Shown here: positions 4,754-59,983 of the stretch, in pieces
Position numbering within the stretch: position 1 is the stretch's first letter
Layout of the letters: every line of letters begins with the position of its first letter
Assembly (NCBI GenBank): GCA_030295235.1
Contig: AP026142.1
Span: 248,001-312,000, forward strand
Direction of reading: 5' to 3'
Origin: Fistulifera solaris
Taxonomy: Eukaryota > Bacillariophyta > Bacillariophyceae > Naviculales > Stauroneidaceae
DNA length: 64,000 nucleotides
Notes under the pieces: generated by a model
What the model was told of the DNA's origin: nothing
What the model saw: only the letters and a program-made list of their open reading frames with translations
Databases searched by the model: none
Program-made: the position numbers and the translations under genes

Positions 4754-7012
4754 ATGTTACTGTATAAATTCATCGCCTCTTGGCTGCTTTCAGCGACAAC
4801 GACAAATGCGTTCGCACCTGTGCTCACTGCACATAGATTGGCTCATCGGCCGCTTTCCCCTTTGCTTCCACCGCTTCTCCTTTGATGGAAGAGAGCAGTA
4901 TGATCACTCCCGAAGGTTTTGGATTTTCCGCCCCGGTCCGTCGTATTCTGAAAGAATCGGGTCGAGGATACCACAAAGCGAAGGCGAGCGATACGGTCAT
5001 TGATGTCATGCAAGCTATTACGGTTGGAGCTTACGATGTAGCGTTGGTATACGATGAAAAAGAACTCGTGGGACTTTTCACAGAAACGGATTATATTCGA
5101 GTAAGTGACAGCATCTTTTCATCAAGACGGATGATCGGTGCAATCTCTCAACTCCCTCCTTCCAGTTTTCGACTCAACGATCGGATCAAGCCACGACAGA
5201 TAAAGAGTCGGCAGAATATTTGTTAACCGCCGTTCGAGAGTACGTCACTCCTGCTGCGGAACTTTTGACACTCAGCCCCGATCAGACGGCCAATGTAGCG
5301 ATTGCTACCATGAAACGTGATAACATTCGTCATTTACTCGTGGCCGATCCGGTTCAAAACCAAAAATTAACCAAAGATAGCTCCATATTGGGGATCATTT
5401 CCTTGCAAGATGTCATGGGGTGCATTCAGAAAGATGAAAGACTCAGTTTGCAGACTCTGGCGCAGAAATACCCCAACATGAGTGTCCTCGATCAGTATCG
5501 CGAGCAAATTAAAAGCGACGCCAACAAGGCGGCGGCGGATCCGGAAACGGTAAAACAGGATATTCTCAAATTTGGTGCCGCAGCATTGTTTGGAGCTATC
5601 TTGCTTTCGTTCTTGACACGTGTTCCGCTTTTGGAGGATTATGCCAGCTCGGTCATGATCGGTTTGTTTGTATTGGGCTACATCGGTATCATCTTCGAGG
5701 AAGTCCTGGAATTCAACAAGGCGGGTATTGCTTTATTGATGAGCACTGGCTTGTGGATCACGTACGCGGACTTTTATACCGGTGATCCGAATGGAATCGC
5801 TTCCGAGGCCGTCCTAGAACAATTGAAAGATCAGCTTGCCGAAGTCTCCGATGTTTGTTTCTTTTTGCTGGCTGCTTCTGCTATTGTAGAAGTTGTTGAC
5901 GCCCATCAGGGTTTCAAAGTTGTCACCAATCAGATTAAAACAACGTCCAAAAAGTCCCTCTTTTGGGTTATTGGTATCCTGACCTTCTTCCTATCTTCTA
6001 TTCTCAACAACCTGACCGTCACCATTGTCATGGTCTCGTTGTTGCGAAAATTAATTCCCAGTGAAAATGACCGCCGCTTGTTCGGTGCCATGGTGGTCGT
6101 CGCGGCCAATGCGGGTGGAGTGTGGACTCCCATTGGGGACGTTACGACGACGATGCTGTGGATCAATCATCAGTTATCCACGATTCCCACGGTCACCGAA
6201 CTCTTTCTCCCGTCCTTCGTTTGTTTGGTATCATCACTGGCGTTCTTAGTCGGTCAAGTGGAAGAAGATGGCAGTTTGGAGAATGCCATGACCGAAGCGA
6301 CGCCATTATCTCCTCGTGGTCAGTTGGTATTTGTAAGTGGCATTGTCAGCCTTTTAAGTGTCCCCGTCTTTGCAGAGTTGACAGGTCTCCCGCCTTACTT
6401 GGCCATGTTGACTGGTCTGGGAGCTATGTGGACTCTAACTGACATTATTCATATGGGGGAAGAGGATGAAGGGTCTGAGCAACTGAAACTCCCGGCGGCT
6501 TTGGAACGAACCGATGTTGCTGGCATTTTGTTCTTCTTGGGTATTCTTATGAGCATTGGAGTCCTCGATAAGAGCGGATTATTGAAAGATTTGGCAGTTT
6601 ATTTGAGTGATACGTTGCCTAGTCTGGATATCATTGCCACTGTCATCGGCTTGGCTTCTGCCTTGATTGATAATGTTCCATTGGTCGCTGCGACCATGGG
6701 CATGTATGAATTGGCTGATTACGGTACCGATGATCGTCTGTGGCAGTTGATCGCCCTTTGTGCCGGTACAGGCGGTTCCATCCTTGTCATTGGTTCGGCA
6801 AGTGGTGTTGCTTTGATGGGCTTGGAAAAAGTCGACTTTTTGTGGTATGCCAAAAGGTCAGCATTGGAGCTGCCGTTGGTTATTTTGCTGGCATTGCCAC
6901 CTATCTCCTTGAAGATGCTGTGTTACACGGATCCAATTTGTTTGCTGGAATGCTACCACAAGCAGCGGTAGCCGCCGATTTGATTCAGCAACAAATTGGT
7001 GCAGTAATGTAG
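4754..7012 (+). CDS. NhaD-type Na+/H+ antiporter with CBS pair, plastid-targeted (NHD1-like)
   Basis: Proposed exons 4754-4819, 4894-5100 and 5166-7012, about 706 aa corrected. Exon 1 encodes a signal peptide ending NAFAP, the diatom plastid motif. Joining it to the body needs a 74 nt intron with a weak donor (4820-4893); without it translation would start at 4882. The second intron (65 nt, 5101-5165) is clear. Domains: two CBS motifs (about residues 40-95 and 115-185), then about 11 membrane segments with NhaD signatures SSILNNLTVTIVMVSLL, GGVWTPIGDVTTTMLW and DNVPLVAATMGMY. Plant NHD1 is a chloroplast-envelope Na+/H+ antiporter; a CBS pair in front is unusual and suggests nucleotide control. 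The frame breaks at the A4 run 6852-6855; one added A restores WYAKKVSIGAAVGYFAG and the end at 7012. Confidence 0.85.
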
Positions 7013-7043
7013 GTAGCTAATTTCGTAATCAAAGTCCATGATT

Positions 7044-10000
7044 TTATTTAAGCATGAAAAGGGGGTCGTTGTTGTCATTCGGACTGCGGTTAGGTGGTGG
7101 TGGCTGTTGTTGCTGTGGCTGCGTTGATTGCTGCATCATGTGCTGATGCCGGGCTTGCATCTGTTGCATCTGCTGAGGCGTCATTCCTGGCGGATAGAAG
7201 GGTTGCTGATAATTTTGATTGGGAGGTCCTCCTGCTTGTTGCGCTTGTTGTTGCTGCATCATTCTAAATTGAGCCATCTGTTGGGGGTGTATTGCTGTTG
7301 TTGCTGCTGCTGTTGCTGAGACCTTTGTGATGTCTGTTGCGGTTGTGCCATTTGCCGCTGGGTTTGACCGTATTGATAGGGCATCATAGGTATAGTACCT
7401 GCTTGCGATGGTCGACGATTTGCGCCTGTTTCGCCTTGAGATTTCTGCGTCCTCGGTGCAGGCGCTGGAGCTTTTACGCCAGAGGTGCTCCGCTTCTTGG
7501 GCTGTTGCTTTGCAGCAGCTTTGGCAGCTTTTGGTTTCGCATTCGATGGTACCGACATCGTGCTAGGCATGGGAGGCGCCGGCACAGGCGTAGAAGTTGT
7601 AGCCGGTTTTTTCTTTTTCTGGCTGGCAGTCGAAGTAGACTGACGTTCGGTTGCTGTAAGTGATTTTCGCTTAGTAGGCGTATTCGTTGATAGCGGTATT
7701 TGACGCACTGAGAACGTATATCCAAGCTTCATATCTACTTCGTTGAGATGAAGAGGATCCCCAATGGTGAATGGTTCTGAAAAACATTGTGAATGTGAGC
7801 GCAATCGTCAAATCTTTTGAAAATCTGTTCCGCTTCTAGTTCTACAGGTACTTACGACTGGTAACACTGACCAATGGTTCGGCGGGGCTTGATGCAGTAG
7901 AAAATAGTGTTTGTGGCAAAGCTAGACAGCGAAGATGTGAAGTTTCTAAGAGAGACGCTGCTTGTCGACCAGGCGCTGATGCAATTTCAGAGTACAAGTG
8001 CTCAAAAATTGGAAACGTTTGCGCGCGTGGAAGAATTGATTTAGCTTGATGCGTATCACGTTGAACTCCAAGATCAAGTTGCCATCCGGGTTCGCCCCAG
8101 GCCTCATTGGACTTAGCTGGCGGAATCACAGAGAGTTCCTCGGTTGCAGCTGGGTGCATGGCCAGTAAAAATAGCTGCTCTGCCTTGATGAGTTCCTTCT
8201 CCTCCGCTGCCAATTTTCTCATTTTTTCTATGACTTGATGCTGTTGTCTTTCGGAAGTAGAAAGGCCCTCCATAGTTTTTTCTCCTTTCTTAGAGGACAG
8301 TATGTCATGGGTCGTAGATCTCAGTTCATTGATTAGACTTTCCTCCGTTGGTCGAAGAATAATTTGTTGCTTTCTACGGTGCATTTTATGCCATATACTC
8401 TTTCGTAGAGGCATAGGTAATTCGGGAAATACTTGAGCACCGGAGTTTGTAAAGCTGTTCGTTTGCTTCTGGTGAGCTTGCTCTCGGCGCTTCTCCGCTG
8501 TTCGCCTTAAGATATCCACCGTCTCTTTTATCCGAACTGATGCTTTCTCCGCATTCAATGCCATATCTGTCTTAAGTGCTTGCGAAGTCGCTGATGCCTG
8601 AACATTCATTCTAGCTCCTTTTTTCTTTTGAAGCGCTGCAGCGGCAACTGTAGCATTTCTCAAGGCTGTTTTCGCGTTCGTTCTCAGTTTTTGCACCTTA
8701 GCCTTTATTTCGGTCATCTTCTGTGATACAGCTTGCTCTCGACGTATAGCCTTCTCGAGCATGGTCTTATATTGGACTGTTGCTTTCATCAGCTCTTGTC
8801 TATCTCTTGGATTAGTAGTCTGTAGTGGATTTCCGTCTGAATAATCATGTCAGTGAGCATTTCGCTTATTAGCGCAAAGAAACTTGTGCTGCTTACCGGG
8901 TCCCAAATAATTGCGAAATTTGGTACGAAATTCATCTTGGCATCTCCTTGCTTTTGCCACCTCTTTTGCAGTACTTTCAGCTACAGAACGACATTCCTTT
9001 TCTTCATTCTCAGCGAGGCTGGCCTGTCGCTCAACTTCGGAGGCCAATTCATTCAATTCGTTATACTTTTTTTCTAACTCTTCAATTCCCGATTCTTCAC
9101 GCTCTCGGGCTGCAACTGCGCGCTGAAAGGATGCTACCTCCTCACTGACGCGTAAATCAGAAAGAATACAGCGAACTTGTCCACCTTGTGCTGTCTCAGT
9201 GTCTCGAAAGCTCCTCGTGCGGTCAAATATTGTTGGTATTTCTCCACAAACGATTGACTCTAGAAAGTCGAATGCTTGCGTTCCCCAAGGGATGAATTCC
9301 TCACGAGCTGCCGAGCTGCCAGTTGCCATATGTTCTGAAGACGGCTGGGAAGACCCGGTGCGTTTGTCGTCTTCTTCCGTTTTCATCACTGACACCCAAA
9401 TCCCTTCATTGTGGATTTCCACGGACAGTTGTCGTTTTGTCTGACTCATAACGCCTTTGCGGTGCTTATGGCGCGACGCGGCGCCGGATGGTTCGTAAGG
9501 TGATGTTTCTAGCCATAGCTGTTGTGACTTTATTGGCATTGGTGGATTGAATTCTTCTCTTCCCTCCATACTATGTCTTCCCAATTTGCTTTCCTCCGAC
9601 TCGCCATTGTTCGTGGCCCCTTCACTCTCCTCGGCGCCCTTCGTCAGATCATTTCGTTCTTTGACAATCCGCTGTATGTGCCGTTTCAGATATCTCTGAC
9701 GAACTTGCTGAAAGTGACTCGAGAGCTTGGCAGCAAGCTTCTGGCGGCTCTTCTCTGCGTCTTTGATTTTCGTCTCGTGTTGGGTTCGTATTTTTTGTTC
9801 CTCGCGACTGTAATCTGCGTCTGTTTTCTGCTTCAATTCGTCTGCTTTCTTCTTGAACTCTTGCTGCTGCCTTTGGTGCTTCGCTTGTAGCTGGCGCAAT
9901 ACGTTCTGCCATTCGACGGAGGCAATATGCTCAGGAATCTGTTGTTGCTGAACTCTCTGCTGATGACTTTGTGCGGCTACTTGCATTTCTTTTGCTGCCT

Positions 10001-11029
10001 TCGCTGTAAAATTTTCATACTGTTTGTTACCTTCTGTTGATTGGCTTCCAGCCGCTGCTGATACATTCCCTGAAGCTTTTGGAGATCACGCTTTTCCTCT
10101 TGCTCGACGCGTTGAATGTATTTATTGATATTCCGATCTGCTTGCTGCTTTTTTTCCTCCATTTGCTCTGCCATTATACGTTCGATCGACGCACGGCCTT
10201 CTCGATCCTGTTGTTCGATTTTCCTCAGCTCGAGGCGAATTTCTTGTTCTTTCCTTTGTTGTAAGAACTTTTGGTACGCCTCCGACTGCTCTTCGTGCGT
10301 CTCGTCGTAAAACTCCATGAACGTTTCATTGTCGTGATAGTTGTAGTCGTCCTTTTGATCCCACCATATATCTTTGGTTTGATTTTTGCAAGACGTCTAG
10401 CTGGGTGGAAGGATCATTCTTGATCTCCTTGTCTTCGTCCTCAGTGGATACAGTGTGTAGCAGTTTTATCGATATTCTTGCTTCTGGCTTGGATGAAGCA
10501 ATTACTTTCATCTTCTTTTTCAGAGGTCTTCGAAGCACAAATTCATCAAAAGCATCGACCAGGTCTTCTTGACTTGCCGAAATACGACGAATCTTTTTCT
10601 TTTGAGGACCATTGTTTCCGAATTCGTTGTAGGTCTGTTTTCTGATAAAATTATTTCTTTTTCTTGTTCCGTTGTACAGTTACCGTCATGTTCTGTGGGA
10701 AGATTCTTTACTTGTTCTTTTTGATCCGTGATATTTTTAGTGCTGAACTGGTGTGCTGTCACTTCGCTTGGATTGTCGACGACAGAATTGGGAGTACTTT
10801 CGGCCTCCACTTTGGCGGTTTGGTTTTCCTCCGACATGTATATTTTCTCGTCGGGAGAGCTTTCTACTGGTTCCGAAGATTTCAAAGCTTCCGCTGCGGC
10901 CGCAAGTCCTCCCTCCAGTGACTTTTGTTGCAAGGAAGAAACGTCTGCATCGGTATGTTCCGATGAAATCGGTTGCGGGAGAGGCGATGGGTCCCCATGT
11001 TCCGCCGGTGCACTCGGTGTTTCTTCCAT
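7044..11029 (-). CDS. Long coiled-coil protein with Gln-rich tail, unknown function
   Basis: Multi-exon gene converging on the antiporter (31 bases apart), about 1,150-1,200 aa. Exons inferred: 11029-10712, 10634-10452, 10396 to about 8870, about 8810 to 7860, and about 7775 to 7044; introns include a clear 77 nt one (10711-10635) and a less certain 55 nt one (10451-10397). Two frame breaks look like missing single bases: near 10030, and the G5 run at 7283-7287. In order: acidic Ser/Glu N-terminus; basic KKKIRRIS; conserved-looking WWDQKDDYNYHDNETF; more than 400 residues of charged coiled coil rich in Gln, Lys and Glu; a globular region (PGWQLDLGV, FEHLYSEIA); PFTIGDPLHLNEVDMKLGY; a Lys/Ala/Pro basic stretch and a Q/M/P-rich tail. 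I do not recognise the family. Composition (basic, Q-rich) would suit a nuclear scaffold, but that is a guess. Confidence 0.7.
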
Positions 11030-11460
11030 TTTGCTTTCGAGCTTATTTTGATGATCTCGAATGTGTTGGAAAGAATGACTACAAAGTAGGTAGCTTTCAG
11101 AGGAAATGCGGTGTTTTATGATATCGACATACCGCAGAAACGGAAGGGTGCAAGGCGGTACGAGTTTTACAAGTGTGCTTACAAAGTCTGTTCCCGATCT
11201 GTACCGGTACGATAATTGTAACCCTTGGCTGTATAATTATTTCAACGTTCGATAATAACCAACAACGGAGTATAACAAAAGAGCTTAGAATTTAGAATAC
11301 CTGGTCTGATAATGACAAGTGCAAAGTTCTTTTGCTCCTTTCTGTCCTCTTCATCCGCCAGGTCGTGCTCTCTATCAGTTTGATGCTGATATGGCGGACG
11401 AATTTAGTTCAAAAGTTCATCTTGTCTAGATTTTGTTTCCGTCTATCCAACAAACGAACC

Positions 11461-12631
11461 ATGTGGGAAGGTTGTTCGAAAATCGAAGATATGTGCCTCT
11501 TTTGGGATGTACCTACCGCTGATTGCGATTCTATCGTCAATATTAGTTTACGTCCTGTGCACTCGTCCGGCGGAGAAAGCGTATCAGCTGCTTCCATGCC
11601 TTCTTCTTCGTCAAATGAAATCACGCCCGCAACAATCAACGACACACCAGAGTCTGTGCTCCAATTCGAACGAGCTCTTCGCAAAGCGGAACATGCAAAA
11701 AAAGGCAGGAAAAGATCTGAGTGCGAGTGATCTCAAAATCATTTACAAAGATGACCATATCATCGTGGTGGTAAGAAAAAATGGAGCAGCTTTGCTTGGC
11801 ACTAGGCTCGCCGCTTCTCATTATTTTCTCGGTCCTTCGTTGTATATTTCAAAGACCAAACCACCTGGTGTGCTCACTGTACCGGGATTACATTCACGGG
11901 CAAGTATACTAACGTTGATTCACGACTTGTTCGGAAACTCCAATACATCTATGGATCGGATGATCGTACACCGCTTAGACATGGATACCAGTGGACTGGT
12001 TCTGTTTGGATTGAACGCACAAATTACGAAAGCGCTGCATGCCCAATTCCGTGATCGCATCGTTCAGAAAGAATACGAGTGCTTGGTTGTGGGCCATTTC
12101 CCCGCCGGCGAGTATTTACTGGATATACCGTTGCAGCGGGATCATCAGCACCCTCCGTTCATGCGCGTTTCGACTCCCGCTTCGGAGCAAGAAGCCGGTG
12201 CTGTTCTTCGTGATTTACAGGCCCATTCGGAGAAGCGCAAAAACTGGAAACATCCGCAACCCAAACCCAGTCGAACCCGAATACGTGTCATCGAACACGG
12301 ATTGTTTCACGATAAATTGCCTTATACACGATTACGTTTGGAGCCTATCACAGGACGGACACATCAATTACGAGTTCATTGTGCCGCTTTGGGGTTTCCC
12401 ATCGTGGGCGATCCCACGTATGGATTGTACGGTGAAGCAGCATCCGGTGGGGGGATCGACGGGCTTCTTGTATGGAATGGTCCAGAACGACCTGATGTTG
12501 TTTTACAGCAGGAATTTCTGAAAGAGTACCGCCCGAATGACAATCCGATGTGTCTGCATGCAGCTTTCTTGCAAATCCAACACCCGATCACCGGTGAATC
12601 TATGTCCTGGAATGTGCCTCCTGATTTCTAA
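11461..12631 (+). CDS. RluA-family pseudouridine synthase
   Basis: It isomerises uridine to pseudouridine in RNA; target unknown. Exon 2 (11855-12631) carries the family core: KPPGVLTVPG, HRLDMDTSGLVLFG with the catalytic Asp in HRLD (about residue 145), YTRLRLEPITGRTHQLRVH and FPIVGDPTYG. An 84 nt intron (11771-11854) lies in frame with no stop, so it could be mistaken for coding; splicing joins IIVV to TKPPG as in relatives. The N-terminus is uncertain: a Ser-rich protein-like stretch (SAASMPSSSSNEITP, LQFERALRKAEHAKK) lies in a different frame and connects only if the A7 run at 11698-11704 is one base too long. A start at 11461 then gives about 361 aa. No S4 domain is seen. Confidence 0.85.
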
Positions 12632-13403: not shown

Positions 13404-16400
13404 ATGTCGAAAGATCCAATTGATGTCTTTGACAAGCAGGTACGTTTCGAAAGATTCGTCGTCTTGCTGGGTCGACCTCGCCTTGTCCTCATCTTCTTTT
13501 TCTAGGGTGATCCTGCTGTCCTCTACCTAGCTGATGGTTCAGCTCCTATCCAAGGAAAGTCTTTCGGAGCTGCTGTTGACATTTCGGGTGAGGTTGTGTT
13601 CAACACCGGCATGGTTGGTTATCCAGAGGCCCTGACGGATCCGTCGTACCGAGGGCAGATTTTGGTGTTGACCTATCCTTTAGTGGGAAACTACGGTGTT
13701 CCAGACTTTTCTGTCAAGGATAATCACGGCCTCCCGAAGTACTTTGAATCGTCGGAGATTCATATTTCCGGTCTTATTGTGAGTGAATACTCTTTCGAGC
13801 ATTCTCACTGGGCCGCTTTCAAAAGTTTGTCGGATTGGTTGGTCGAGAACAATATCCCGGCCCTGTATGGTGTGGATACTCGTGCGCTTACGAAGAAACT
13901 TCGTGAACATGGATCGATGTTGGGTCGAATTGCTGTGGTAAGTTGAAAATCGCGCGAAATTGGAACCAGATGATGTGTTGCATCACTCAACGTCTTTTTC
14001 CGACAAAGAACCCGGCCGTTATCGAAGATTCCATCGACCTTTCGTTATTTGCTGATCCCAACAAGCGCAACTTGGTGGCGGAAGTGTCCACGAAGGAGAT
14101 CGTCGTCTACAACAAAGGGGCTACTCCTCGGATTATCGCGTACGATTGTGGAATGAAATACAACATCATTCGCTACCTTGCCGAGACTCACAAAGTCCAA
14201 CTAACGGTTGTTCCTTTCAACTATAATTTGAAAGAGAACCCCTCCAAGATTGAATGGGACGGTCTTTTTCTTTCCAACGGACCTGGAGATCCAACCATGT
14301 GCCCCGAAACGATCGCATCGATTCAGTATGCTCTAGCCCTCGAGGACCCCAAGCCCATTTTCGGTATTTGCTTAGGCAACCAGTTGCTGGCTTTAGCTGC
14401 CGGTGCGAAGACGTACAAAATGAAGTATGGCAATCGTGGTATGAACCAGCCAGCGATCGATTTGCGCACAGGTCGCTGCTACATCACTCCCCAAAACCAC
14501 GGTTTCGCCGTCGACACCGCCTCTCTGCCAGAGTTTTGGAAGCCTCTTTTTTTGAACGCGAATGACTTGACGAACGAAGGCATTGTGCATACCAGCAAGC
14601 CATTTTTCAGTGTTCAATTCCACCCTGAAGCTAGTGGTGGGCCCACGGATACTGGCTTCCTTTTGAGAAGTTCGTTGGTCATGTCCGTAAGATTCCGCAA
14701 CCCCTTGTCCTGCAGGATGGACTCAATTTCGAGCGCAAAAACTACAAAAAAGTCCTACTGGTCGGTAGTGGAGGTCTCAGTATTGGACAGGCTGGTGAAT
14801 TCGACTACTCTGGAAGTCAGTGTATCAAGGCGTTGAAAGAAGAGGGAATCGAAGTCATTTTGATCAACCCTAACATTGCCACTGTTCAGACTTCTCAAGA
14901 GAAAGAAGACAAGCAAAGTCGTGCAGCTGATCGTGTTTACTTTTGCCAATCCAACCAGACGTTGTCATGGATATCATTCATAAAGAGCGTCCCGACGGAA
15001 TCATTGTTTCGATGGGAGGCCAAACCGCATTGAATGTGGGTATTGAGCTCTGGCGTCGAGGAGAGCTGCAGAAGGCCGGAGTCGAAGTTCTTGGTACCCA
15101 AATCCCGGTTATTGAAGCTACTGAGGATCGTGAGATCTTTAGCGAGAAGCTCAAAGAAATTGGCGAAACGATTGCTTTATCCTACAGCGCCACAACTATT
15201 GATGAAGCTATCGAAGCTGCGAATAAAATTGGCTACCCGGTTCTCATCAGGGCTGCTTATGCCCTCGGTGGTCTTGGTTCTGGCTTTGCGGCCGACGACA
15301 ATGAGCTAAGAGATATGGCGGCTAAGGCTTTTACAACCAGTAGTCAGATTTTGATTGATCAAGATTTGCGAGGCTGGAAAGAGCTCGAGTACGAGGTTGT
15401 CCGTGACGCTAGCGACAACTGCATTACTGTGTGCAACATGGAGAACTTTGATCCCCTCGGTATCCACACGGGAGATTCTATCGTTGTGGCGCCCTCGCAA
15501 ACACTCACGAATAGCGAGTACTTCATGTTGCGTCGTACGGCCATCAAAGTTGTCAGACATCTCGGAATTGTCGGAGAGTGCAACATCCAATACGCCCTTC
15601 ATCCTGAAAGCGAGAGATATTGTATCATTGAAGTCAACGCACGTCTTTCTCGCTCGTCTGCACTTGCCTCAAAAGCGACGGGTTATCCCTTGGCTTACGT
15701 CGCTACTAAGATTTCTCTCGGCAAAGATCTTGTATCGATTCGAAACTCAGTGACGAAGACAACCACTGCCTGCTTTGAACCGAGTTTGGACTATTGTGTT
15801 GTGAAGATGCCTCGCTGGGATTTGAAAAAGTTCTCCCGAGTGAGCAATAAGTTGGGGTCGTCAATGTTGAGTGTCGGCGAAGTCATGGCTATCGGACGGA
15901 CATTCGAAGAGGTCATTCAAAAGGCATGTCGTATGGTGAATCCTTCCCTTGATGGTTTAGAAGGTACTGATTCGAACATGATTGACAGCTCCGCTGATTT
16001 GGAGACGAGTCTCAAGACACCAACAGATACGAGGTTGTTTGCAGTGCAGAAGGCTCTAGAAGATGGATGGTCGGTTGACAGGGTGCATGATTTAACCAAG
16101 ATTGATAGGTGGTTCTTGAACAAGTTGCTTAACATTGCACGCATGCGAAATGCTGTCAAGCAAATCGGTAGCCTTCCGGCACTTGTCGCAACTAACGGAG
16201 GTGAGCGCCTTCGAGCCCTCAAGATAGCAGGTTTCAGCGATAGACAGGTACGTCAATGATAGTCTCCGTCTGCATTTGTTCGCCGACCAGGGAACTTACA
16301 CTTCCCGATCAATCCATAGATCGCTCGATACGTCGGGGAAGCTGCCGGTATCGAAGGAGAGTCTCGAGTGCGGGAAGAGAGAAAGAATTTGGGAGTCCTT

Positions 16401-18203
16401 CCTGTCGTCAAACAAATTGATACGCTTGCAGCCGAATTCCCAGCTCAAACGAACTACTTGTACGTGACCTATTCAGGTGACACCGACGACATCCCTGAGT
16501 CCACATACTCCTCCGAAGCTCGTCCGAAATCGTCTGGATCGTATCATCGCCGGGCTCGATCCTACTCCAACGCTGAGGCATCGAGATCTTTGACCGAGGC
16601 GAAAGACCGTGGTGTTGTTGTTCTTGGTTGCGGTGCATACTGCATCGGCTCGAGCGTCGAATTCGATTGGTGCGCCGTGTCTTGTGTTCGACAGCTTCGA
16701 AGCGAAGGTTTCAAGAGCATCATCATCAACTACAACCCCGAGACGGTGAGCACAGACTACGATGAGAGTGACCGCCTGTATTTCGAGGAATTGAGCACGG
16801 AACGTGTCATTGATATTTATGAACGCGAAGCCGCTTCTGGTGTCGTCGTATCGGTTGGTGGGCAAATCCCGAACAACCTTGCCGGTCCTTTGGCATACTC
16901 TGGTGTCAACATTCTCGGAACGAGTGCTGTAGACATCGAACGCGCCGAAGATAGAAAGCAATTCTCGGCCATGCTTGACTCCATTGGAATCAGACAACCG
17001 GAATGGTCTGTGCTTTCGTCGACAGAGGAAGCAATCGCGTTCGCCCAGAAGGTCAAATTTCCGGTTTTGGTACGACCTAGTTTCGTCTTATCGGGTGCTG
17101 CGATGCGTGTGGCAGCAGATGAGACACAATTGCGCAACTTTCTTGCCTTGGCCACTGAAGTCGGTAACGACAAGCCGGTGGTCGTTACGAAGTTTGTCGT
17201 CAACGCTAAGGAAATTGAGTTTGATGCTGTTGCCAATCAGGGACACATTCTGAACTATGCCATCGGCGAGCACTTGGAGAACGCTGGTGTACACAGTGGT
17301 GACGCTACAGTGATTTTGCCGGCTCAAAAGCTTTATGTGAGCACGATCCGTCAAGTGAAGAAGTACGCCAGTGCAATCGCGAAAGCCTTGCGCATCACAG
17401 GTCCTTTCAACATTCAGTTCATGGCCAAGGGCAATGAAGTTCAGGTTATCGAGTGCAACCTTCGCGCGAGTCGTACTTTCCCTTTCGTGAGCAAGACCTT
17501 AAATCACAACTTCATCTCCCTTGCCACCCGAGCCATGGTTGGTGTGAAAGCCTCTCCGTACAAGATCTCTTTGCTGGACATAGAGTACGTCTGCGTGAAG
17601 GCGCCCATGTTCTCATTCACTCGTCTTCGAGGAGCAGATCCAACACTCGGTGTTGAGATGGCTTCTACTGGAGAGGTTGCATGCTTTGGTGAAGATGTAC
17701 ACGAAGCTCTGTTGCAATCGATGCTTTCCACCAATTTCAAGTTGCCCAAAAATCGGACAATTCTTTTGTCGATCGCAAGTGAAGAGTTCCGCCACGAATT
17801 TGCCGAGTCTGCCGTCATTCTCGCTGGTTTGGGTTACAAGTTGTATGGAACACCAGGAACTGCTAAATACTACCAAGATGTAAAGGGCCTCTCGATTATT
17901 TCGGTCCTGAAGTCTGAATCTGAATCCGACGATGGACCTGGAACAGCAGTAAACGAGATAAAGCAAGGAAATATCGATTTGGTGATTAACCTTAGCGAAG
18001 GGTCGACCCGTCGTGAGGAAGTGACATGTGGATACATCATCCGTCGCGCGGCTGTTGACTTTGGGGTTTCTTTGATCACCGATGTCAAATGTGCCATCGC
18101 GTTGACCGAGTGCTTCGAACGCGGAATGGATGTGGAGAGACCTGCTCCTCAGCACATTGGAGAGTTCTACCAAATCCCTACGATTGGATGGTCGAATAAT
18201 TAA
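13404..18203 (+). CDS. Carbamoyl-phosphate synthetase, glutamine-dependent, single chain
   Basis: It makes carbamoyl phosphate from bicarbonate, glutamine (or ammonia) and 2 ATP, for pyrimidines or the diatom urea cycle. Exons 13404-13439, 13506-13937, 14009-16247 and 16320-18203; introns 66, 71 and 72 nt. Order: small-chain N domain; class I glutamine amidotransferase with triad Cys277 (GICLGNQ), His361 and Glu363 (FHPEAS); two ATP-grasp synthetase halves ([23 protein letters not shown], and the second [10 protein letters not shown] half); C-terminal MGS-like regulatory domain ([10 protein letters not shown]). No ATCase or dihydroorotase is fused. Two T4 runs (14661-14664, 14941-14944) each lack one T; adding both makes exon 3 divisible by three and the protein 1,530 aa, as expected for the family. 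An in-frame upstream ATG at 13299 would add 35 residues resembling a targeting sequence. Confidence 0.93.
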
Positions 18204-23021: not shown

Positions 23022-23152
23022 TTTTCGAAGAACTCAAGATTTTCTGGTCGCTCTTTTCATTGCAGTTGTCAAATTATGCGAACCGCTTCATGAAAGAGAA
23101 AGATTATCGCCTTTCGGCACGGATATCACCGTGTCATCAAAAGCCATTCATC

Positions 23153-24297
23153 ATGTTCTTTCGCAAGTTGTCTACATGCTTTATTCCAGCATATTCCTAC
23201 CGCATAAGTCGCTTGACAAGCTCGATGAGTATCGCGAAAGGTCTTCTGGAGGCTCACTCAGATGCCGGCAATCGTATCGCTGGCACAGGAATCGCTGGTT
23301 CGAAACCACTCTTGCTCACTGGCGATGAGTTTCAGGTTTCCAATGATGGAATTGCGCGCAGCTTGTATGAGATTGACGGCAGCTACTCCATCGCCATCGA
23401 AGAGCTCTATGATTTGAAGCACAACAAAAGAATTTTGTCGTTCGTCAGCAGAGCAGTTCGCAACTGTCGAGCGAAAAAGGAATGGATGTACTCTCGAGAA
23501 ATGCTCGAGGTGTGGTTCCGTTGGGTAGGTGTTTGGCAGCGGTCGAAATTCAAGAGATTGAGGAGCACGATTTGTTTCTTGGTGAAGCTGGCACAGGGTC
23601 AACAACATGGGAATCGTCAATCGCAATGGCATTGTTCCTTCACGAAAATCCCGAGGCTCTTCTCGGTGACGTTGTTGAAGTGGGTTGTGGAGTTGGTTTA
23701 GGAGGCATTTTGAACGCATGGACGAAATATTCGTCGCCTTTCATGTCTTCCTTAGGTGGATCGATCACCTTGACAGACGGAAATGATAAAGTGTTGACGC
23801 AGTGCCGAGAAAACTTGACCTCAAATTGCAGTTTATTTCAATACAACTATCATGACATATCCACCAGAAAATTAGAATGGCACGAATATCCTGGAAAATG
23901 CAACTCCATGCGGGCATCCTTTGATACTGTGGTTGGGTGCGACTGCGCGTATCGGTACAAGGACATCGATGCGCTTAGCGAGACCATGAGTGATCTTTTG
24001 GCGCCAGGTGGAACAATACATTTCTTTGCACCTTACAATCGAAGTACTTTATATGATTTGATACGCGCTCTGAAAGACGGTCTCGGGTTAAACGTTCTCC
24101 TGGATTGGATTGACCTAAATCGATACCGTTTGAAACCAGGATGTCGAAGCAAATTGCCAGGCGAAACTATCTCATTTGAGGACTGCCTTTACGCTTCAAA
24201 AGCGACGGCAAAAATACTTCATATTATAGCATCGAAAAAGATCGAAAGCGGTAGTGTAGCAAATTTAAACACACGTGACATGCACGCTATCGATTAG
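23153..24297 (+). CDS. SAM-dependent methyltransferase (METTL/Methyltransf_16-like)
   Basis: Probable class I methyltransferase of the small-molecule/protein-lysine type. The C-terminal part shows the Rossmann features: TWESSIAMALFL, motif I VVEVGCGVGLGG, an acidic post-II SITLTDGND, and motif IV FDTVVGCDCAYR; GTIHFFAPY is the beta-5 strand. The N-terminal part (IAKGLLEAHSDAG, ITG and LLTGDEF) is in another frame up to MYSREMLEV; adding one base around 23511-23518 joins it to VPLGRCLAAVEIQEIEEHDLFLGEAGTG, the typical lead-in of Methyltransf_16 enzymes. Start uncertain: Met at 23153, with Met at 23060 or 23225 possible. The early basic, Ser/Tyr-rich residues could be an organelle presequence. 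Substrate unknown. Confidence 0.75.
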
Positions 24298-37758: not shown

Positions 37759-38041
37759 GGTATCATTTGCTGAGAATGGAATGATATAAAGTGCTTTCCC
37801 AAGGGAAACACGGTTGGTTGTCGACGCGAGACAAGGTGGAAAACAAGTGGCGTAATGTATTGTGTTTGTTTGGGTTTTCTCTTTCGAGCGAAACGGAGGA
37901 GAAACTGATGACCTTTGCCGTGTTCCGCGTGCTACTCACATTACGCCCCCAAAAGGCCCAACAAGAAAGCTATTGCAGTCGAAGAGGAAGAGTGCTGTAA
38001 CAAAGAAGATTGTTTATCTAAAAAATAAATCATAGAATGCC

Positions 38042-39431: not shown

Positions 39432-42400
39432 TTAGGAAGAAAGAGATTGAACTTTATTCGGCCATGGATTTGATTCTGTGTCATTCGTAACTGTCACAAG
39501 CCATTGCAATGAAAATCGATACGAGACAGTCTCCTTCTGAATTACATTCAATCGAAGTTTTTGAAGGTTGTAAACACCGGTGGATGTGACTAGAGCTTGG
39601 AATGGTATGGAAAGTTCTCCATCTGCATCCAGCTTATTCTCAAGGCTCACAGGTCCACTAAAGTGCAAAGACTCGGTCGCTTCCAACGAAAATTCAAACG
39701 ACACGGATGCTTTCGTCAGACGATTCTTCAAGTGAACTTGGAAAGGTATCGTAGCCGGTCCGGTCACAAAATCATGGGACAGTCTCGACGGATAGCTGGC
39801 GGTGACCAAAATGGGACAGCCTTTGATATCCATTTTAGGGCGCACAAAGAGATCGCGAACAAAAAGAGCTCCCCGGATCGCACTGTTTTTACAGTGCCAC
39901 GAAAGAATCAGATGCACTCGCTCTTCATCGACATTACGGGGACAAAGCTTTCGAACCGACGTCGCATCTACTACGAGCTCTGCTGGTTCAGTATCGGATT
40001 CCTGGCCTGTCAAAGCAGTATTGGCGCGTCGAATTTGAGCAATGGAACGTGGTTGTTGGTTCGAGGCATCATGAGCTGCTTCCGCGCGGGCGAGCGCTAT
40101 CCTGTGCTTCGTCAAGGTATCTTCAAAAATGGCGTGTGCACTTTCCAGACACAAAAAGCTCACAAGCGAATCCGAATCGTTCAATTGCTGCGGAATAGGC
40201 TTCAAGAAATCAGATTGGCTTAAGACCGAATGTTTGGATCCGTCGTCACCAATGGGAAGGACTCGGAAATGCGACGCCACTCGTTCTTGCCAACCAAGTT
40301 CCACAACAGATTCGTCAAATTGACCTTCGAATGGGATAAGTTGATAATTCCAACTAGCCAACGAAACCTTGCTGACGGCTATATTAGTATCATCTGGCGA
40401 GTCGGTTCGATTGTTCGCAACCTCCAGTGACAGTGTGTTTTCACTTGATATTCGGTTGGAGGGAACCAGGGACGTAGCTAGTGTTACGGAGGGGTATATA
40501 TTCACTTCAAACATCTTCTTCAACCACCTAAATCGACCCCTCTCATTCTCGTCGTCACTGAGTAGCTCATATCGAAACAGCATGTACAAGCCCTGTTTGC
40601 CACTCTGGGGTGTTCGCATCTCTATCGGGACATCTATCGATTCTCCAGGATAAAGGTTTCCTTCTTTAAGCGGGAAACTCATCAATGTTCCCGATGGACC
40701 AAGTGAGTTCGGAACACCGTCATGCTGTTGGGTTGACTTGTGAAGGATCCGTATCCAAGGAATATTTGTTTTTAACGTAGCGTTCGTGGCAGGCGCTGTA
40801 CCAATATTTTCCACCCGAAGAATCCACGGCCTTATCTGCCCTTCCAAGGCTGGACCGACGGGAGCTGATTGTTGAGCGGGCAACAGTTCTATAGTGAGAC
40901 AGGGCATCCCTCTCTCGACCTTTGCTCGTAGAAGCATGGGTTCACCGCGCACACGGTTGGCACGATTGGCGCGAGTATTTTGCAGCAGTCTTCCTTTGAT
41001 TTCAAATTGGTGATAAACCCAAACGGCATCGAATAAGCGGAAACGGACTCCTAAAACTTCCAGATCACCTTTCTCCAAGGGACATATTCCAAGAGCAATC
41101 CTTTTCGAGCCTTCCGGGTCCAGTGTGGCATTTGCTTTGGTAACGACAAAAATGGGGATGCCTCCGCTGCTGCTTTCCATCTTCCTTTCTCATCCTCACC
41201 AGATCCAGACGAAAGACGACAGAAATCGGCAATCAAAAACTCTTCTTGTCCACTTTGAAAGGTCCACTTTGGTTGTTCATTGTAGGAAACTAATTGAGTG
41301 ATAGAAATTGCATCTTCGTTCGTACAGCAGATATCTGCACTCGTCATTTTAGCGACGAGTTGAATATCGTTCAAGTCGACTGGTATACCCAGAGGGTTCT
41401 TCATAACAAACTCAATAAAGTACGGCTCTCTTTGAGCTCTGATTGGTGGCATTTCTCTATAGGACGCAGAGCGTTTCGCTCGCTCTTCCCTACTGCGATT
41501 CAAATGTTCCTTGTCAATTTCGGTTATTACTTTCCGGATTTCTGGATCATGAATAGACCGCAACGCAGTAGAAATGACATCATTGTCAACCTTAGCCTTA
41601 TCTTCTTTGACGGCGCGGAGCTCGGCGTTAGTGCAAAGCATCAATTCGTCCCATATCTCTTCACTACCTCGATGGGCCTCACCGAGGTCAGGGACATTCT
41701 CTTTTGTCTGTGGTATGAAGCTTCTTCAGCCAGAACTGCCACGGAATGATCGTCAATTAAGGGCAAATTGACGTGGAGCAATTCCAACACTCTAGAGGCC
41801 CCTTTCGTGTAACGAACAACTTGCACAATTCGATCTAGCTTCTCTTTCCGTATCGCATCGCGCTGAAGTCCGGTCAGGTGGGAGGGTGCTGCCAAGCGGT
41901 CTGCACCAGCAAGAGCCTTCTTTGGGTAGTCGCTGCAAATTTCCAACAAGTTATTTACGTATTTTTGTTGCGATTTAGTAGACACGCGTCCACCTTCGGA
42001 ACATCCAACCAATTTCCCATATAATTGCAAAGCAATCGCCATGCGTCCCATAGAAAAAAGCTGAGCCGCTAGTGCCGATCGTATATGATTATGCAATTCA
42101 TCCCAGTTCCCATCACGATAAATGTACAAAGCCGATGTGAAACATCGAAATGCGTGATGATTTTGTTCCGCCGATCGATACATGTGACCACTCATTAACA
42201 TATGAAATGCGTACTTGCGATACAACTCGGCATGAAAATAATGAGCCGAACCCTGTTCCAGTAACACCGCCGCTCCTAGTGCATTCTCGTTCGACGATGC
42301 CGATGCCAATAGATCCGCTACTTCGAGATGACGTCCGGTAATCACATTTTGCGTAGCGGTCAATACTAGACACAGTCGCGTAGCGAGACGCGTCGACAGG

Positions 42401-44172
42401 GAAGCGGCAGCGACTCGTCCACTAACGCCGACTCGTTCTTCTTCGGCCGCACGACTGTAACTCCACATGGCATTTTCAATCAATGAAAAAATCTCTCGGG
42501 CTCGTCCATAGGCGTCCATATGATATAAGCACAGCGCCATCAATTCTTGCACACTGGCATAATGAGCGTGTGCTTTGTCTTGTTTCAAGTCATCTTTGAT
42601 CAACCGGTAAGTCCCGTACGCTTGTTCATAATCCGCCACAAGAAAAAGCGTATCGGCCAGCAAACGCGTTTGATTCTCCACGGTATCAAATTTGTATCGA
42701 ACGACATCGGTGCCCTTGCCCGCATTTTCGTCAATGGACTCCGATTCTTTCGGTTTCCCCGTCCGCCAAAACGACTTGAGCGCATTCCGCACACCTTTCT
42801 TTCGTTCACTGACTACCGCATTCAATGTCGCAATCCGATGTTCCAACGCCGGCAACAAAGCTTCTACCGCCAAACTGGTCAAGAATTGTCGCAACGACGC
42901 CCGGTCGTTCATGGACAAACAGTTCCCCAATTGTCCTCCGCCGCTCCACAAATCACTGGTTTCTTCGGTCGCTAATTGACGCGCCGTTTCCAACGACAGA
43001 CTGTTGATCCGCACGACCGCCGACGCGGCTCCAAATTCTTTCCTCAAGTCCTGTTGTAAGGATTGTTCATTCCAATTCTGTGCCCCATCGACATTGTCGT
43101 GCAAGACCAAGACTTGATGTTGCAATGCCTGCGGATTCATGAGACCATTTTGGAACGCCGTGGGCAAATAGAACTGCGAGGCACGTAAGGCGCGAACCGT
43201 CGCGAGCGCATCTTCGTGCGTCGTCGCCACCAACAAACACAAGGCCGGACAATGAAACAAATCGTGCGGCGCATCCTCGGTCGATTCATCCAGGGCTTGT
43301 CGATACCGTTGCAACCACGGAATCGTCAAGGGTGACGTCAAATCAAAGGCGTCTTTGTGAATTTGATCCAATTGACGTTGTCGTTCCTCGTGTGTGACGG
43401 ACAATAAGGAAGGCGACTCGTCGAGCAGCAGATTGTCAACTTGATCTTCCAATAAGCACAATTCGGATTCTAAATTCCCGTCAGTGGCATGAATTTGGGC
43501 CTCTCGCGACAATGAATCCGCCGCTTCTGTGTCGTTCATGGTCTGAAACTCTTCGACGAACCGAATTTGGAGATCCTGCCACGTCAAATTCAAAAAGCGT
43601 GCCAACGAACGAAAAGGTGGTATTGTGGGTGGTGATTGATTGTTTTGGTATCCTGCGAGCATATGGTTGTAGAGTCCCTGCAACAGATCGACCAATCGCA
43701 AATCATTTTTATGAGCTAATTGATGCGCGGATTCGGACGCCAGAATCAAGACCGGCAAATGTCGATGACGTCGGGCCAAAAGTGGATGAGGAGGTGATGT
43801 TTTGGATAATTTGGCTTTGGGTGGAGGTGTATTAGAAGTAGTCGTAGTCGTCGTCGTCGTCGTCCTCGTTGGTGCATTCGGAGAAATGTTGACTGTTGCA
43901 GGCGGCAGAGAAGACTTGTTTGAAGTAGTAGAAGTCGTGGGTACTAATTTGGGTGGAGGCGGTAGAGAACCCGAGGTGGTAAACAAAGAAGACATTCCGG
44001 AAGTCGTGGCGGAAAAATTCGCCGATGGTGGTGCACTGGAAAGACCAGGAATCGGAACGTTAGTGTGATGTGGTTCATTCTGGGGTGCGGCTGCTGTTGC
44101 TTTATTGTTTGTTGTATTCGCCACTCTCGGAGGAGGTGGTAGCGTTCCCAAAGGACGAGAAGGATTCGTCAT
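39432..44172 (-). CDS. TRAPPC8: TRAPP complex subunit 8 (Trs85/TRAPPC8)
   Basis: About 1,580 aa corrected, no intron. TRAPPC8 is the specific subunit of the TRAPPIII Rab1-activating complex in ER-Golgi traffic and autophagy. N-terminal 150 residues are Pro/Ser/Thr-rich with a poly-Thr stretch (near 43830-43865). Next comes the TRAPPC8 core: RKKGVRNALKSFWR, ENQTRLLADTLFLVADYEQA, TYRLIKDDLKQDKAH, and a TPR-like region (RCFTSALYIYRDGNWDELH). The C-terminal third has beta-sandwich modules (RPWILRVENIGTAPATNA, CHCKN-like LSWHCKNS, TVTNDTESNPWP). Two single-base gaps, near 41666 and near 41180, break the frame; adding one base at each gives a continuous chain and a length divisible by three. It lies 281 bases downstream of NUP85 on the same strand. 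Confidence 0.85.
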
Positions 44173-47443: not shown

Positions 47444-47478
<35 letters not shown>

Positions 47479-48034: not shown

Positions 48035-48107
48035 AATGAAACAGAAGGTTCCTACGGGTTGTTATTAACTATGTATAGGACACTCTTTCAACCTGCAGCC
48101 AAACAAC

Positions 48108-49861
48108 TCACCACGCTTTGCAATTTCCAGCCATGAACCGAAACACTCGTCGTCGACGACATTGGTGACCTGGACAACATCCGCGATTGGACCAACACAA
48201 TTGGTTGAGGCGTGTACAAGCGGGTTTTATGATAGTGCGTTCCGATGGTTGAGGTGTAGTCGAGGGACTCAAAGATGGTCGCGGTGATGGTGCCGCCGAA
48301 GGGGCTTCACTTGGAGATTGCGTCGGTGATACGCTCGGTTCATAGGATGGAACCTTGGTCGGTCCAGAAGAAGGCGGTACGGAGGGTGTAGTCGTCGGGG
48401 CTTTACTGGGAAATTGGGTTGGCGATGAACTTGGTTCGTGTGATGGGAATGAAGAGGGTTGAAAAGTTCTGGACGGCCCCAAGGAAGGGGTGTAGGAGGG
48501 TTGCAGTGATGGTTGCTTCGAAGGCGATGCCGATGGCCGGAGTGTAGGAAAAGGGGTGGGATAAAGGGTTGGTTCGATGGAAGGACGATGGGAAGGGAAT
48601 ACCGAGGGTATCATACTGTCCGTAGGTGTTACCGAAGGTGCTACGCTGCTCGTCGGAGCAATGGATGGAACTTGCGATGGACTTGCGCTGATGTGTTCTT
48701 GCGTCAAATACAACATCAAATTTGGGGATCCGGTACGTAGATTACTCAACGTTCCTACCACAGCGCGTGACCGCAATACCGTATAAATATCCGTGAAACT
48801 CGAGAAGCCTTCTTGCAGCAACATGGCGACCGCACCGGCGACAAAAGGTGCGGCCTGCGATGTGCCTTGCTTCGTGTCCGTGGCCGTATTCGAAGAGATT
48901 CCCGCCGAAACAATGTCGACCCCCGGTGCCCAAATGTCCACACAACTTCCATAGTTTGAAAACGATGCTTTAAAGTCTAAAGCATCGACGGCCCTGACCG
49001 AAATGGCGCCCGAGCTTCGTGAATACGTGTTACAGGCATCGACATTCCAATTCCCTGCCGCTAGAACCACAATGACGCCCGCATCGCGGGCATTGGCAAT
49101 GGACGAATCCAACGAAGAGCTGGAAGATCCCTGAATACTCATATTCACGACTCTTTTCCGGATTGATTTATAACATGACTCAGACCCGTCAAGATATTGG
49201 ATAGCGAACACGATCCATTATTGTCGCACACACGGACACTTCGAACATTCGCTTCTTTCGCCACTCCATACTTGGTTCCCGCACAAATGGCGGCCACGTG
49301 CGTCCCGTGCCCATTGCCGTCCGCGCAAGCATTATTGGAGCTAACGACATCCCGCGAACACACCGCCCGACCCCCAAAATCTTGGTGTTGTAGGCGAATT
49401 CCTGTGTCGAATACATAAATATCCACCCCTTTCCCCGTGTAGCCGTACCCAAATTCTTGATCGAGTGGTAAATCGATTTGATCAATGCGATCGAGTCCCC
49501 AATTTGCCGGATTGTATTGATAATTCGCTATGGTAAAGACGATATTTTCTTCAATATAGATGACACGATCATCGTGTAACAAACCAATCAAAGCAAAGGC
49601 CGACAATTCCGCCGCAAAGCCTGGAATGCCTTTTTGATAAAAATGTTGAATGTGCGTTTGGTCACGGTACGCGCTCGTCATTTGTACAGCATCAACAGCA
49701 GTCGCAGTTTCGTGCAATACGACAATGTATTCTCCCGGTATCACGTTGGTCGTTAAGGCGCGGCGCAATTTCGGATGCGCACCAATCCAATCCTCTTCCT
49801 CCTGACCGATCACCACCTGACGAAAGAGGCGGAAAACGAGCCAATAGCACCATCGTCGCAT
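48108..49861 (-). CDS. Secreted proteinase-K-like subtilase (S8) with PSxxP stalk and Cys-rich tail
   Basis: 584 aa corrected, no intron. Signal peptide-like start (WCYWLVFRLFRQVVIG), I9 propeptide (GEYIVVLHET to RVIYIEEN), then the catalytic domain: Asp in IYVFDTGI, His in NGHGTHVAAICAG, Asn in LAAGNWNV, Ser in QGTSQAAPFVAG. After the protease comes about 140 residues of PSxxPS/SPSxxP repeats (48240-48680), a stiff O-glycosylatable wall-anchoring stalk typical of diatom secreted proteins, and a C-terminal CxLNQLCWSNRGCCPGHQC knottin-like module. The frame breaks at the T4 run 49154-49157; one added base joins NQSGK to RVVNMSIQG. Paralogue of the gene at 36226-37758, which has four exons and no stalk. 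Confidence 0.9.
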
Positions 49862-53162: not shown

Positions 53163-53255
53163 ATATTAGGTGTATTCGCACGGTGTAACAAGAGGGATAT
53201 TGGAAACTTTTGCCGGTTAAAAAATGTAAAAGGTTGAGCCTCTCGGTCGTTTCTA

Positions 53256-55056
53256 TTATATATTGATCGACGGCGGAACAAGAAGGTTGTTGATTTCATA
53301 AACAATGCCACGGAAAACAAGTCCCAATTGACGGTTCCTGTTGTCGTTGAAGAAAATTGCCGCTGCCTCGCGACGCAATCTTACATCTTCTCCTTGCCAA
53401 GAGACTATTCTTGTCGTCGTTCCCACTGGCAGTGTTTGGAAATTGATCAAGCGCACGAGTACGTGATAAAGAACCACTTGTTCGTTAATGTTGGCATTTC
53501 GAGGATCTCTCAAGAAGTTGAACGTATCATCCGGGATACCCACATCGGTAGGGGCAACAAGCGATCGGTCTTGTGTTGTTTGGAAAAACTCCTCAGCGTC
53601 AGCGGCAACGATGAGCGTGATGAACCTACTAAACGCTCCGGACTCGTCCATGTACGAGTATAGATTCAAAACAGCCGAAGGAGGCAACAGTACGCTGTCT
53701 ATATTGTGCAACACACCATCCGTAGCTCGTCGATCGGGTCGCACAATTAATGAAAGAACCGGTGATGACGTCACAACTCGGATCGAATCGTCTAGTTCGT
53801 TGTCGAACGATGTCGAGCCCCTGCTAACATACGTAGTTCAGTATCATTATCTGCCAGAGTATTCAAATCACTTAGGAAATAATCGTTGGCCACCAAATGG
53901 TACGCAACGAGATCGAATAAATGAAGCGCATAGTTTTGGTCAGAAACAAGAAGATCCAAATATTCGGGGTCAAACCCGGCAAATGCCGCATTCGTCGGGG
54001 CAAACACCGTATATATTTCGGTTGCCGGAGAGAGAATGTCGTCAATGCCGGACGCAACGATCGCCGTTTCAAAAACTGAAAGCTGAGGGTCGACTTGAAT
54101 AAGCTCAAGCAGTGTTCTGAAATCCGTCGGGGAACTCGATGGCGAGGTCGTCGGGGAAGTCGTCGGGGAACTTGTTGGAGATACAGTAGGGTTTGTGGTT
54201 GGGGATGTCGTCGGGGAACTCGACGGAGATCTACTGGGCTGCGGCACTGGCACCGGTGCGGGTACTGGAACTGGCACCGGTACGGGCACAGGAGCCGGAA
54301 CTGGAGCCGGTACGGGCACAGGAGCAGGCACGGGAGCCGGAACTGGAGCCGGTACGGGCACAGGAGCAGGTACGGGAGCCGGTGCGGGCACAGGAGCAGG
54401 TAAGGGTGCGGGCATAGGAGCAGGTACGGGAGCCGGAACTGGAGCCGGTGCGGGCACAGGAGCCGGTACGGGAGCCGGAACTGGAGCCGGTACGGGCACA
54501 GGAGCAGGCACGGGAGCCGGAACTGGAGCCGGTACGGGCACAGGAACTGGAGCCGGTGCGGGCACAGGAACTGGTACGGGAGCCGGAACGGGCAAAGGAA
54601 CAGGGACGGGTGCGATAACCGGTGATGAGGGCGTCGGTACCGTGGGTGTTGGCACAGGAGCAACTACCGGCATCGAAGGAGTCGGAAGAGGTGCAATGAC
54701 GGGTGAAGGAGCTATCGGAGAAGGCATCGGAAGGGGTGAAACCACCGGCGACGATGGCAGAGGGGCAACTGCCGGCGAAGATGGCACAGGGGCAACTACC
54801 GGCGAAGATGGCACAGGGCAACTACCGGTGCCGATGGAACCGGAACTGTTGGTGGAACAACTGGGCTTGGTGTTGGCAAAGACATGCTGCTGTCGATTTG
54901 GAGATATCGCATCCAAAAAGCGCTATCCCGGCCTTCATTTTGTTCATCGTGCTTAGTCTTGGTTTGTCTCAACCTACTTTCCGCTGTGACCTGATTTCTC
55001 AGAGAGACACTCAATAGAATAGAAATTGAAAGAGAAAAAGACTTCATGGCTGTCAT
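53256..55056 (-). CDS. Secreted fasciclin (FAS1) protein with Pro-rich PVPA stalk
   Basis: 600 aa corrected. Start at 55056 gives a signal peptide ([19 protein letters not shown]). Then a long low-complexity stalk: APVPSSP, then PVPAPVPV repeats, then SPTTSPT repeats. The stalk is followed by two FAS1-type domains, one with [11 protein letters not shown] and [11 protein letters not shown], and a second with [17 protein letters not shown] and [10 protein letters not shown]; both carry the FAS1 'H2 YH' motif. FAS1 domains mediate adhesion between cells or to extracellular matrix. Two frame breaks: G3 at 54816-54818 and C4 at 53818-53821 each need one more base; the first falls in the near-identical repeat unit that supplies the missing base, and the total then divides by three. 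Likely an extracellular or frustule/wall adhesive protein. Confidence 0.85.
54236..54610 (-). repeat. Pro/Val/Ala hexapeptide tandem repeat tract
   Basis: About 375 bases of hexanucleotide-like repeats (GGAGCC/GGTACG/GGCACA units) encode PVPAPV. All three minus-strand and several plus-strand frames stay open here, which creates long shadow frames. Confidence 0.85.
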
Positions 55057-57665: not shown

Positions 57666-57773
57666 AACTGCTCTTGTGTCTCTATTCCGTTAATCTATAA
57701 TGGCAAAATACCAAATTAAACGCTAGTATATCTATTGAAAGAAATCGCTTGACAATTTGTAGGAAATATTTCT

Positions 57774-58592: not shown

Positions 58593-59033
58593 TTTATGAA
58601 GCCTTGTAGTGGATAAATCTACACGTTAACTTCTTGTCAATGATGCGCTTGTTCAAAGTCTTCACGCCGTCGAAATGTGGAATTACAAGCGCGTGACGGT
58701 GTGACAAGGACATCGAGATGCGCGTCAACAAGAAACGCACTCCAAATGCTCACAGTCTGTCTTCGATTGTGACTTCTTTTTATTTAGATGATGTTTGAAA
58801 TTCTGCAGCATTGTAAATGTCTTTCCCGCCATTTCACGAAATCCTAATTAGGCAAAAAAATTTCGAGGTCCCACTCAATTCGCTAAGTACAAAACTCAAA
58901 TAGATGCTCTGACGCCGGCCCACCTCCTCGCCGAAACCAAGTAAATCCAAGAACTCACTCATCTTTCGCGACAACAATCTTCCTTTCCAAAAAAGTGAGG
59001 TATCGTCTCAGTTTGTTCCTATCACTCATTACC
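58593..59033. promoter_or_regulatory. Bidirectional promoter region, HAD-like / FAS1 gene
   Basis: About 440 bases between divergent genes. No coding region or known element recognised. Confidence 0.35.
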
Positions 59034-59983
59034 ATGACTTCTGGGTCTGTTATTTTAGCCTTCCTACTTGTGCTCGCCCAGTCAACGGCTATGCAGAGTG
59101 TCATCGAGATTGCAAATTCGGGTGAATTTTCGGTTCTCAACACCCTGCTCGAACACACTGCAGAACCAGAAGGCGAACTCTTTTGCAAAGTATATTTCAA
59201 GAGAGTCGGCCCCTTACGTTATTCTTCGCTCGTGATGCTGGGTTTTCCGAATTAAAAGCATCCCAGTACTTGGCGAAACTGATGCTTCCCTCCTATCGCA
59301 TGCATCTTTATAGCTTGATGTCCTATCAAATTGCCGACCAGTCCATGAGAGAGGTTCTAGAACAGCCACCCGACCAAAATAAACCTTTCTTAACTAAGAA
59401 TCTTTGTGGTGCGAACATTGTCATTTACAGAGAAACGGACACTACTGTCATCGTGAATACGGCAAATAAGGAAAGCCCAGCCGTCATGGAAAATCCGATA
59501 CCCACAAGCGACAACGCCATCGTCGTCCCAACCGACAATGTGATGTTTCCCAACTGGATCACGATGGATCTGTATGCTTTCATGGTTGAACACGATGCGT
59601 ATACATCCATCAGCACCTTTACTACCTTTTCCTCCTTGTTGATCGCTGGCAACATGGACGACACAGTGAGAGAAAGCACCGATTTGACTTTGTTTGCACC
59701 CGTCAATCAGGGCTTATCCGATGAGCTAGTGGAAGATCTGTTAGAAAGACCCGACGCTCTGGCCGACTTTCTGAAGCATCACATGGTGTCGGAAGTATTC
59801 AACGTGCGCGACTTGACAGAGGTGCAGCTACTACATACCGTTTTAGGAGAATGCGTCCTTGTCAATCCGACGGAAAAGCGCGGTGTACTTATTGGTGAAT
59901 CACAACTGAAGGGATACCAGCTTGTGCGGGAAGGAATTCTGTACAAAATGAGTGATGCCTTGATTCCACCATCATGGCGATAA
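59034..59983 (+). CDS. Secreted fasciclin (FAS1) domain protein
   Basis: 316 aa corrected. Start at the first ATG in frame (59034) gives a signal peptide (SGSVILAFLLVLAQSTA). Two FAS1-like units follow: SVLNTLLEHT, LTLFFARDAGFSEL, LYSLMSYQIAD and then VMVE-like YAFMVEHDAYTSISTFTTF, LTLFAPVNQGLSDEL, FLKHHMVSEVFNV, LVREGILYKMSDALI. The frame breaks at the T4 run 59181-59184; one added T joins EGELF to LQSIFQESRPLTLFFARD, and the total divides by three. No Pro-rich stalk, unlike the FAS1 gene at 53256-55056. Adhesive extracellular role inferred. Confidence 0.82.

Follow-up and report, generated by a model that had tools for sequence, protein, structure and literature searches.

Single-base frame breaks in conserved genes of a Fistulifera solaris assembly as likely homopolymer errors of the long-read consensus

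Our results indicate, with a probability of about 97%, that the frame breaks in conserved genes of Fistulifera solaris are errors left behind in the consensus of a long-read assembly of nanopore type. The one-letter breaks are present in the assembled sequence, but they are almost certainly assembly errors and most likely no biological feature, and the diatom itself most likely has intact genes. A long-read consensus with homopolymer error was also the explanation favoured by the first-pass annotation of this DNA. It is supported by two comparisons: the breaks that could be tested are absent from another F. solaris assembly, and plastid DNA that was assembled twice differs between its copies in the same manner.

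In the proposed mechanism, base calling and consensus building would report runs of identical bases as one base too short or too long, and the loss of a base would be commoner than the gain of a base in the miscounted runs. The same error would then appear in both homeologs, on other chromosomes and in the plastid.

Frame breaks in the window and its homeolog

The window is the whole stretch of 64,000 nucleotides that was analysed (C33:248001-312000), in an F. solaris assembly of 61 contigs and 51.7 Mb. This species is described as allodiploid in a passage of PMC13276009. A subtilase search of the genome suggested that contig C33, which carries the window, pairs with C32 as its homeolog. The two contigs are ~81–91% identical over aligned blocks, and C32:246001-316000 can be aligned to nearly the whole window in such blocks of 81–91% identity. 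Coding stretches were located by the excess of synonymous differences between the window and C32. In this alignment, we viewed all 19 places at which the first-pass annotation had put a break, and we listed every gap in the coding stretches whose length is not a multiple of three.

The first-pass annotation had claimed about 18–20 frame breaks, and the open frame indeed changes at all 19 listed places. At 15 of the 19, the homeolog stays in one frame. Eleven places (6852, 7283, 11698, 14661, 14941, 21615, 27853, 35761, 49154, 54816 and 59181) are at most 6 bases away from a length difference with the homeolog not divisible by three, and the frames at 7283 and 11698 were read directly, which confirmed both. 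The breaks are thus real features of the assembled sequence, but some of the positions assigned to them were off by up to ~90 bases. Those displaced by ~35 to 90 bases are ~23514, which lies at 23425, ~25610, which lies at ~25566, and ~41666, which lies at 41701-41703. At 37724, in a run of seven, the window shifts frame and the homeolog does not, but the alignment is locally messy. The window also has breaks that had escaped the first-pass annotation, for instance at 22205.

At the remaining four places (~10030, 38997, ~41180, which corresponds to site 41152, and 53818), both homeologs shift frame together, without a length difference. The change at 10030, in the stretch 9990-10030, is the least clear of these shared sites. 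The first-pass annotation had named programmed -1 frameshifting as an exotic alternative. If slippery runs caused ribosomes to shift by -1 or +1 in a programmed manner, so that full proteins were made from broken frames, frame changes at short A or T runs, as found at several sites, and frame changes kept in both homeologs, as found at four, would be understandable. However, such signals would be expected to be conserved, whereas the homeolog is in one frame at 15 of the 19 sites. This alternative fails because these 15 sites are unshared and because intact versions exist wherever a comparison could be made, and we regard it as extremely unlikely. That one of the shared changes at 10030, 38997 or 53818 is a real programmed frameshift, kept since the subgenomes split, is very unlikely.

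The homeolog carries breaks of its own. The one-sided single-base differences are evenly distributed, with 14 that break the window and 14 that break C32, and the genes for TRAPPC8, tripeptidyl peptidase II (TPPII) and carbamoyl-phosphate synthase (CPS) are each broken in both homeologs, at different points. This even distribution is relevant to another explanation, in which one homeolog of each gene is being lost after allopolyploidy and genuine mutations have broken the redundant copy. An allodiploid genome in which 15 of 19 sites are unbroken in the other homeolog is what such gene loss might produce. Yet, pseudogenisation should concentrate the breaks in one copy and should not disrupt both copies of TPPII, TRAPPC8 and CPS, nor would single-base changes at runs be expected to dominate as they do. 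Moreover, unbroken versions of both genes that could be compared are found in another assembly. Synonymous differences dominate beside the breaks (65 to 4 in CPS), but this counts little against gene loss, because the stretches were chosen for their synonymous excess; very recent gene loss would leave no trace in synonymous counts. All in all, we consider pseudogenisation exceedingly improbable.

Affected genes

The CBS/CitMHS transporter gene (5220..6971, plus strand; identified by Pfam and the C32 alignment) has a run of four A at its break at 6852, where the homeolog has five. It is followed by two coding stretches on the minus strand, both delimited by the alignment with C32 and by their frames. 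One is rich in glutamine (7049..7807), and its homeolog is 13 bases longer at the break at ~7283-7287 and stays in one frame; the other (8855..10396) contains the shared frame change near 10030. The RNA pseudouridine synthase gene (11507..12631, plus strand; Pfam and C32 alignment) has an A run at 11698 that is one base longer in the window than in the homeolog.

The CPS gene (13506..18203, plus strand) takes its extent from coding stretches, with Pfam support for 13943-16259. Its breaks at 14661 and 14941 are both C-TTTT-G, each one base shorter than in the homeolog, and the homeolog has its own break opposite window position 14607. Furthermore, at ~16230-16320 both homeologs change frame without a length difference. 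Such shared changes, here and at 10030, could be taken to mean that introns or gene boundaries were mistaken for frame breaks. However, the breaks amount to exactly one base relative to known proteins at the sites that were compared, which leaves no room for an intron, and the two frames overlap or adjoin at the sites whose frames were read. Hence, we attach a negligible probability to this explanation, although an intron may be involved at 10030.

The cytochrome P450 gene (21467..22824, plus strand; Pfam for 21982-22824, otherwise the C32 alignment) is one base shorter than its homeolog at 21615 and at 22205, and one base longer at 22308. In the coding stretch at 23060..24297 (plus strand; C32 alignment), the A run at break 23425 is one base shorter than in the homeolog, and in the coding stretches at 24989..27997 (minus strand) the window is one base longer at each of the breaks at ~25566 and 27849. 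The TPPII gene (32171..36167, plus strand; Pfam and C32 alignment) has an A run at 35761 that is one base longer than in the homeolog, while C32 has three breaks in this gene, all at other positions. A TPPII protein from a metagenome (P0121) reads through the window break at 35761 and through three further breaks in C32.

Two subtilase genes are found on the minus strand. The first (36226..37762; Pfam for 36226-36996) has its break at ~37724, in the run of seven, and the second (48108..49861; Pfam) at 49154. The two genes (36226-37762 and 48108-49861) lie on the same strand, ~10–12 kb apart, in both homeologs. Between them are a gene without Pfam match (38216..39115, minus strand), whose frame change at 38997 is common to the homeolog and has a C-TTTT-G context on the coding strand, and the TRAPPC8 gene (39432..44172, minus strand; Pfam), with breaks at 41703 and 41152.

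Two fasciclin (FAS1) genes complete the series. The first (53261..54922, minus strand; Pfam and C32 alignment) has a G run at 54816 that is one base shorter than in the homeolog, and at 53818 a frame change at a run that is common to both homeologs. The homeologous open reading frame of this gene (L014:7950-9446) contains a long repeat rich in proline, valine, alanine and serine. The second (59064..59983, plus strand; Pfam) has a C-TTTT-G break at 59181, one base shorter than in the homeolog.

Single-base gaps at homopolymer runs

In the coding stretches, we found 63 gaps between the window and C32; the length is divisible by three in 29 and indivisible in 34. Nearly all of the latter (30 of 34) are single bases. 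Fourteen of these 30 fall in stretches that are open only in C32, and thus break the window; 14 fall in stretches that are open only in the window, and thus break C32; and 2 occur where both copies were scored as coding. The density amounts to 14 single-base breaks per 39.5 kb of coding stretches in the window, or ~1 per 2.8 kb, with the breaks shared by the homeolog excluded.

The first-pass annotation had placed the breaks mostly at homopolymer runs, and our counts agree. Of the 28 one-sided single-base differences, 24 have a run of three or more at a distance of at most 2 bases, which holds for ~33–34% of random coding positions. For runs of four or more, the figures are 18 of the 28 and ~9%. 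The four outside runs of three are at window positions 4837 and 5110 and at C32 positions 284730 and 290593. The last of these is absent from the published protein, though it lies outside runs; the other three may result from the alignment or from introns.

Comparison with a separate assembly

Comparison with an independent assembly had been proposed in the first-pass annotation as a check, and all six testable breaks turned out to be absent from the proteins of the matching copies. These six breaks, one in the window and five in C32, belong to two genes, the subtilase (P0002) and TRAPPC8 (P0241). The subtilase protein FisN_14Lh138 (584 aa) matches the window over 582 residues with 1 mismatch and without a gap across 49154, where the window is one base short relative to this protein. 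FisN_14Lh138 is 91% identical to the C32 subtilase. The latter, which has no visible break, is identical to its own published F. solaris protein at 581 of 581 residues.

A similar picture emerged for TRAPPC8. FisN_14Hh135 (1563 aa) agrees with C32 at 1558 residues, free of mismatches and gaps, and the remaining 5 residues fall on five single-base shortfalls in the C32 gene. The shortfall at residue 998 is also found in the window, at site 41152. The published protein reads through this shared site, which shows that the same error can strike both homeologs. In total, the window copy of TRAPPC8 has two breaks relative to FisN_14Hh135. The gapless match of the published subtilase and TRAPPC8 at the six matching-copy sites, 41152 among them, is a further argument against programmed frameshifting.

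A predicted intron cannot bridge a single base, and hence the sequence from which the FisN proteins derive must have another length at these sites. The contigs of these proteins measure at most 485,476 and 514,140 bases, compared to 854,523 for C33 and 848,469 for C32; since they are shorter, the proteins come from another assembly. This is probably Fsol_1.0 (GCA_002217885.1), the F. solaris assembly to which we take the FisN locus-tag prefix to belong. By extension, the sites for which there is no protein comparison probably share the homopolymer-error cause.

Plastid DNA assembled twice

The plastid contig C60 (232,645 bases; loci L022-L037) is largely an inverted duplicate about a central stretch. 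Over 50.3 kb of this duplicate, we counted 164 indel events between the two copies, of which 141 involve one base and 153 are located in runs of three or more. Only 8 columns are mismatched over the same 50.3 kb, all of them where there is a gap or a shifted run, and no mismatch was found away from these. A further 3.3 kb of the duplicate has 2 gaps and no mismatch. The gene psbB is present twice in C60, and the positions of its breaks differ between the copies. Plastid DNA that was assembled twice thus differs in the same manner as the nuclear homeologs, which programmed frameshifting would not explain.

Six-to-five is the commonest class of run difference in the plastid (55 cases in A and T), followed by five-to-four (45). 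In 151 of the 164 events, it is the same arm that is shorter, which implies that the two copies are of unequal quality, so that their error rate need not equal that of the nuclear contigs.

The first-pass annotation had also pointed to a context in which many of the runs stand between C and G. This was borne out in the plastid comparison, where 7 of the 15 five-base A or T runs that are preceded by C and followed by G are shortened, compared to 36 of 334 with other flanks (Fisher p = 0.0008). It did not extend to a depletion of such runs in nuclear DNA: relative to C-T4-G, C-T5-G was no rarer in the 168 kb of nuclear sequence examined than T5 relative to T4 with other flanks. The context bias therefore rests on the plastid comparison.

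Breaks elsewhere in the genome

Genome-wide, a gene was scored as broken when abutting matches were found in different frames, and the best candidates were scored. Among these best-scoring candidates, breaks were found in 8 of the 21 nuclear Cpn60/TCP1 genes and in 5 of the 33 subtilase loci, and split matches were also seen for HSP70. In the chaperonin pairs on C3/C4 and C25/C26, which are probably homeologous, both sides are broken, at different places. Likewise, the C38/C39 pair (86% identical) shows single-base length differences inside a subtilase.

These results are a warning, as gene models and pseudogene counts derived from the assembly would be affected. Comparison of homeologs alone would miss the shared errors, and could mistake other errors for gene loss after allopolyploidy.

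Comparison with other long-read assemblies

The platform was probably Oxford Nanopore, with short-read polishing either absent or incomplete. In line with this, a section of a 2025 paper (PMC12159174) cites Fsolaris_ONT_v03reference (GCA_030295235.1) as well as the older Fsol_1.0. Its row for F. solaris gives 62 sequences and a size of 52 Mb. Judging by species and size, Fsolaris_ONT_v03reference is probably the assembly studied here, which has 61 contigs and 51.7 Mb. Nanopore assemblies of other diatoms, Thalassiosira and Phaeodactylum, are described in an excerpt of PMC8147415 as polished with Illumina reads; in their state before this polishing, they are among the nearest counterparts of the present case.

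According to an excerpt of PMC12007338, nanopore deletions occur mostly after four to five identical bases. These run lengths are near the commonest plastid classes in our results, six-to-five and five-to-four. Short indels at runs that lead to frameshifted genes, as we observed in F. solaris, are likewise reported in the consulted parts of PMC12007338, PMC8812927 and PMC9262707. In these sources, as far as those parts go, the organisms are bacteria or have small genomes. In contrast, the homeologs and the twice-assembled plastid of F. solaris provide internal controls within a single assembly.
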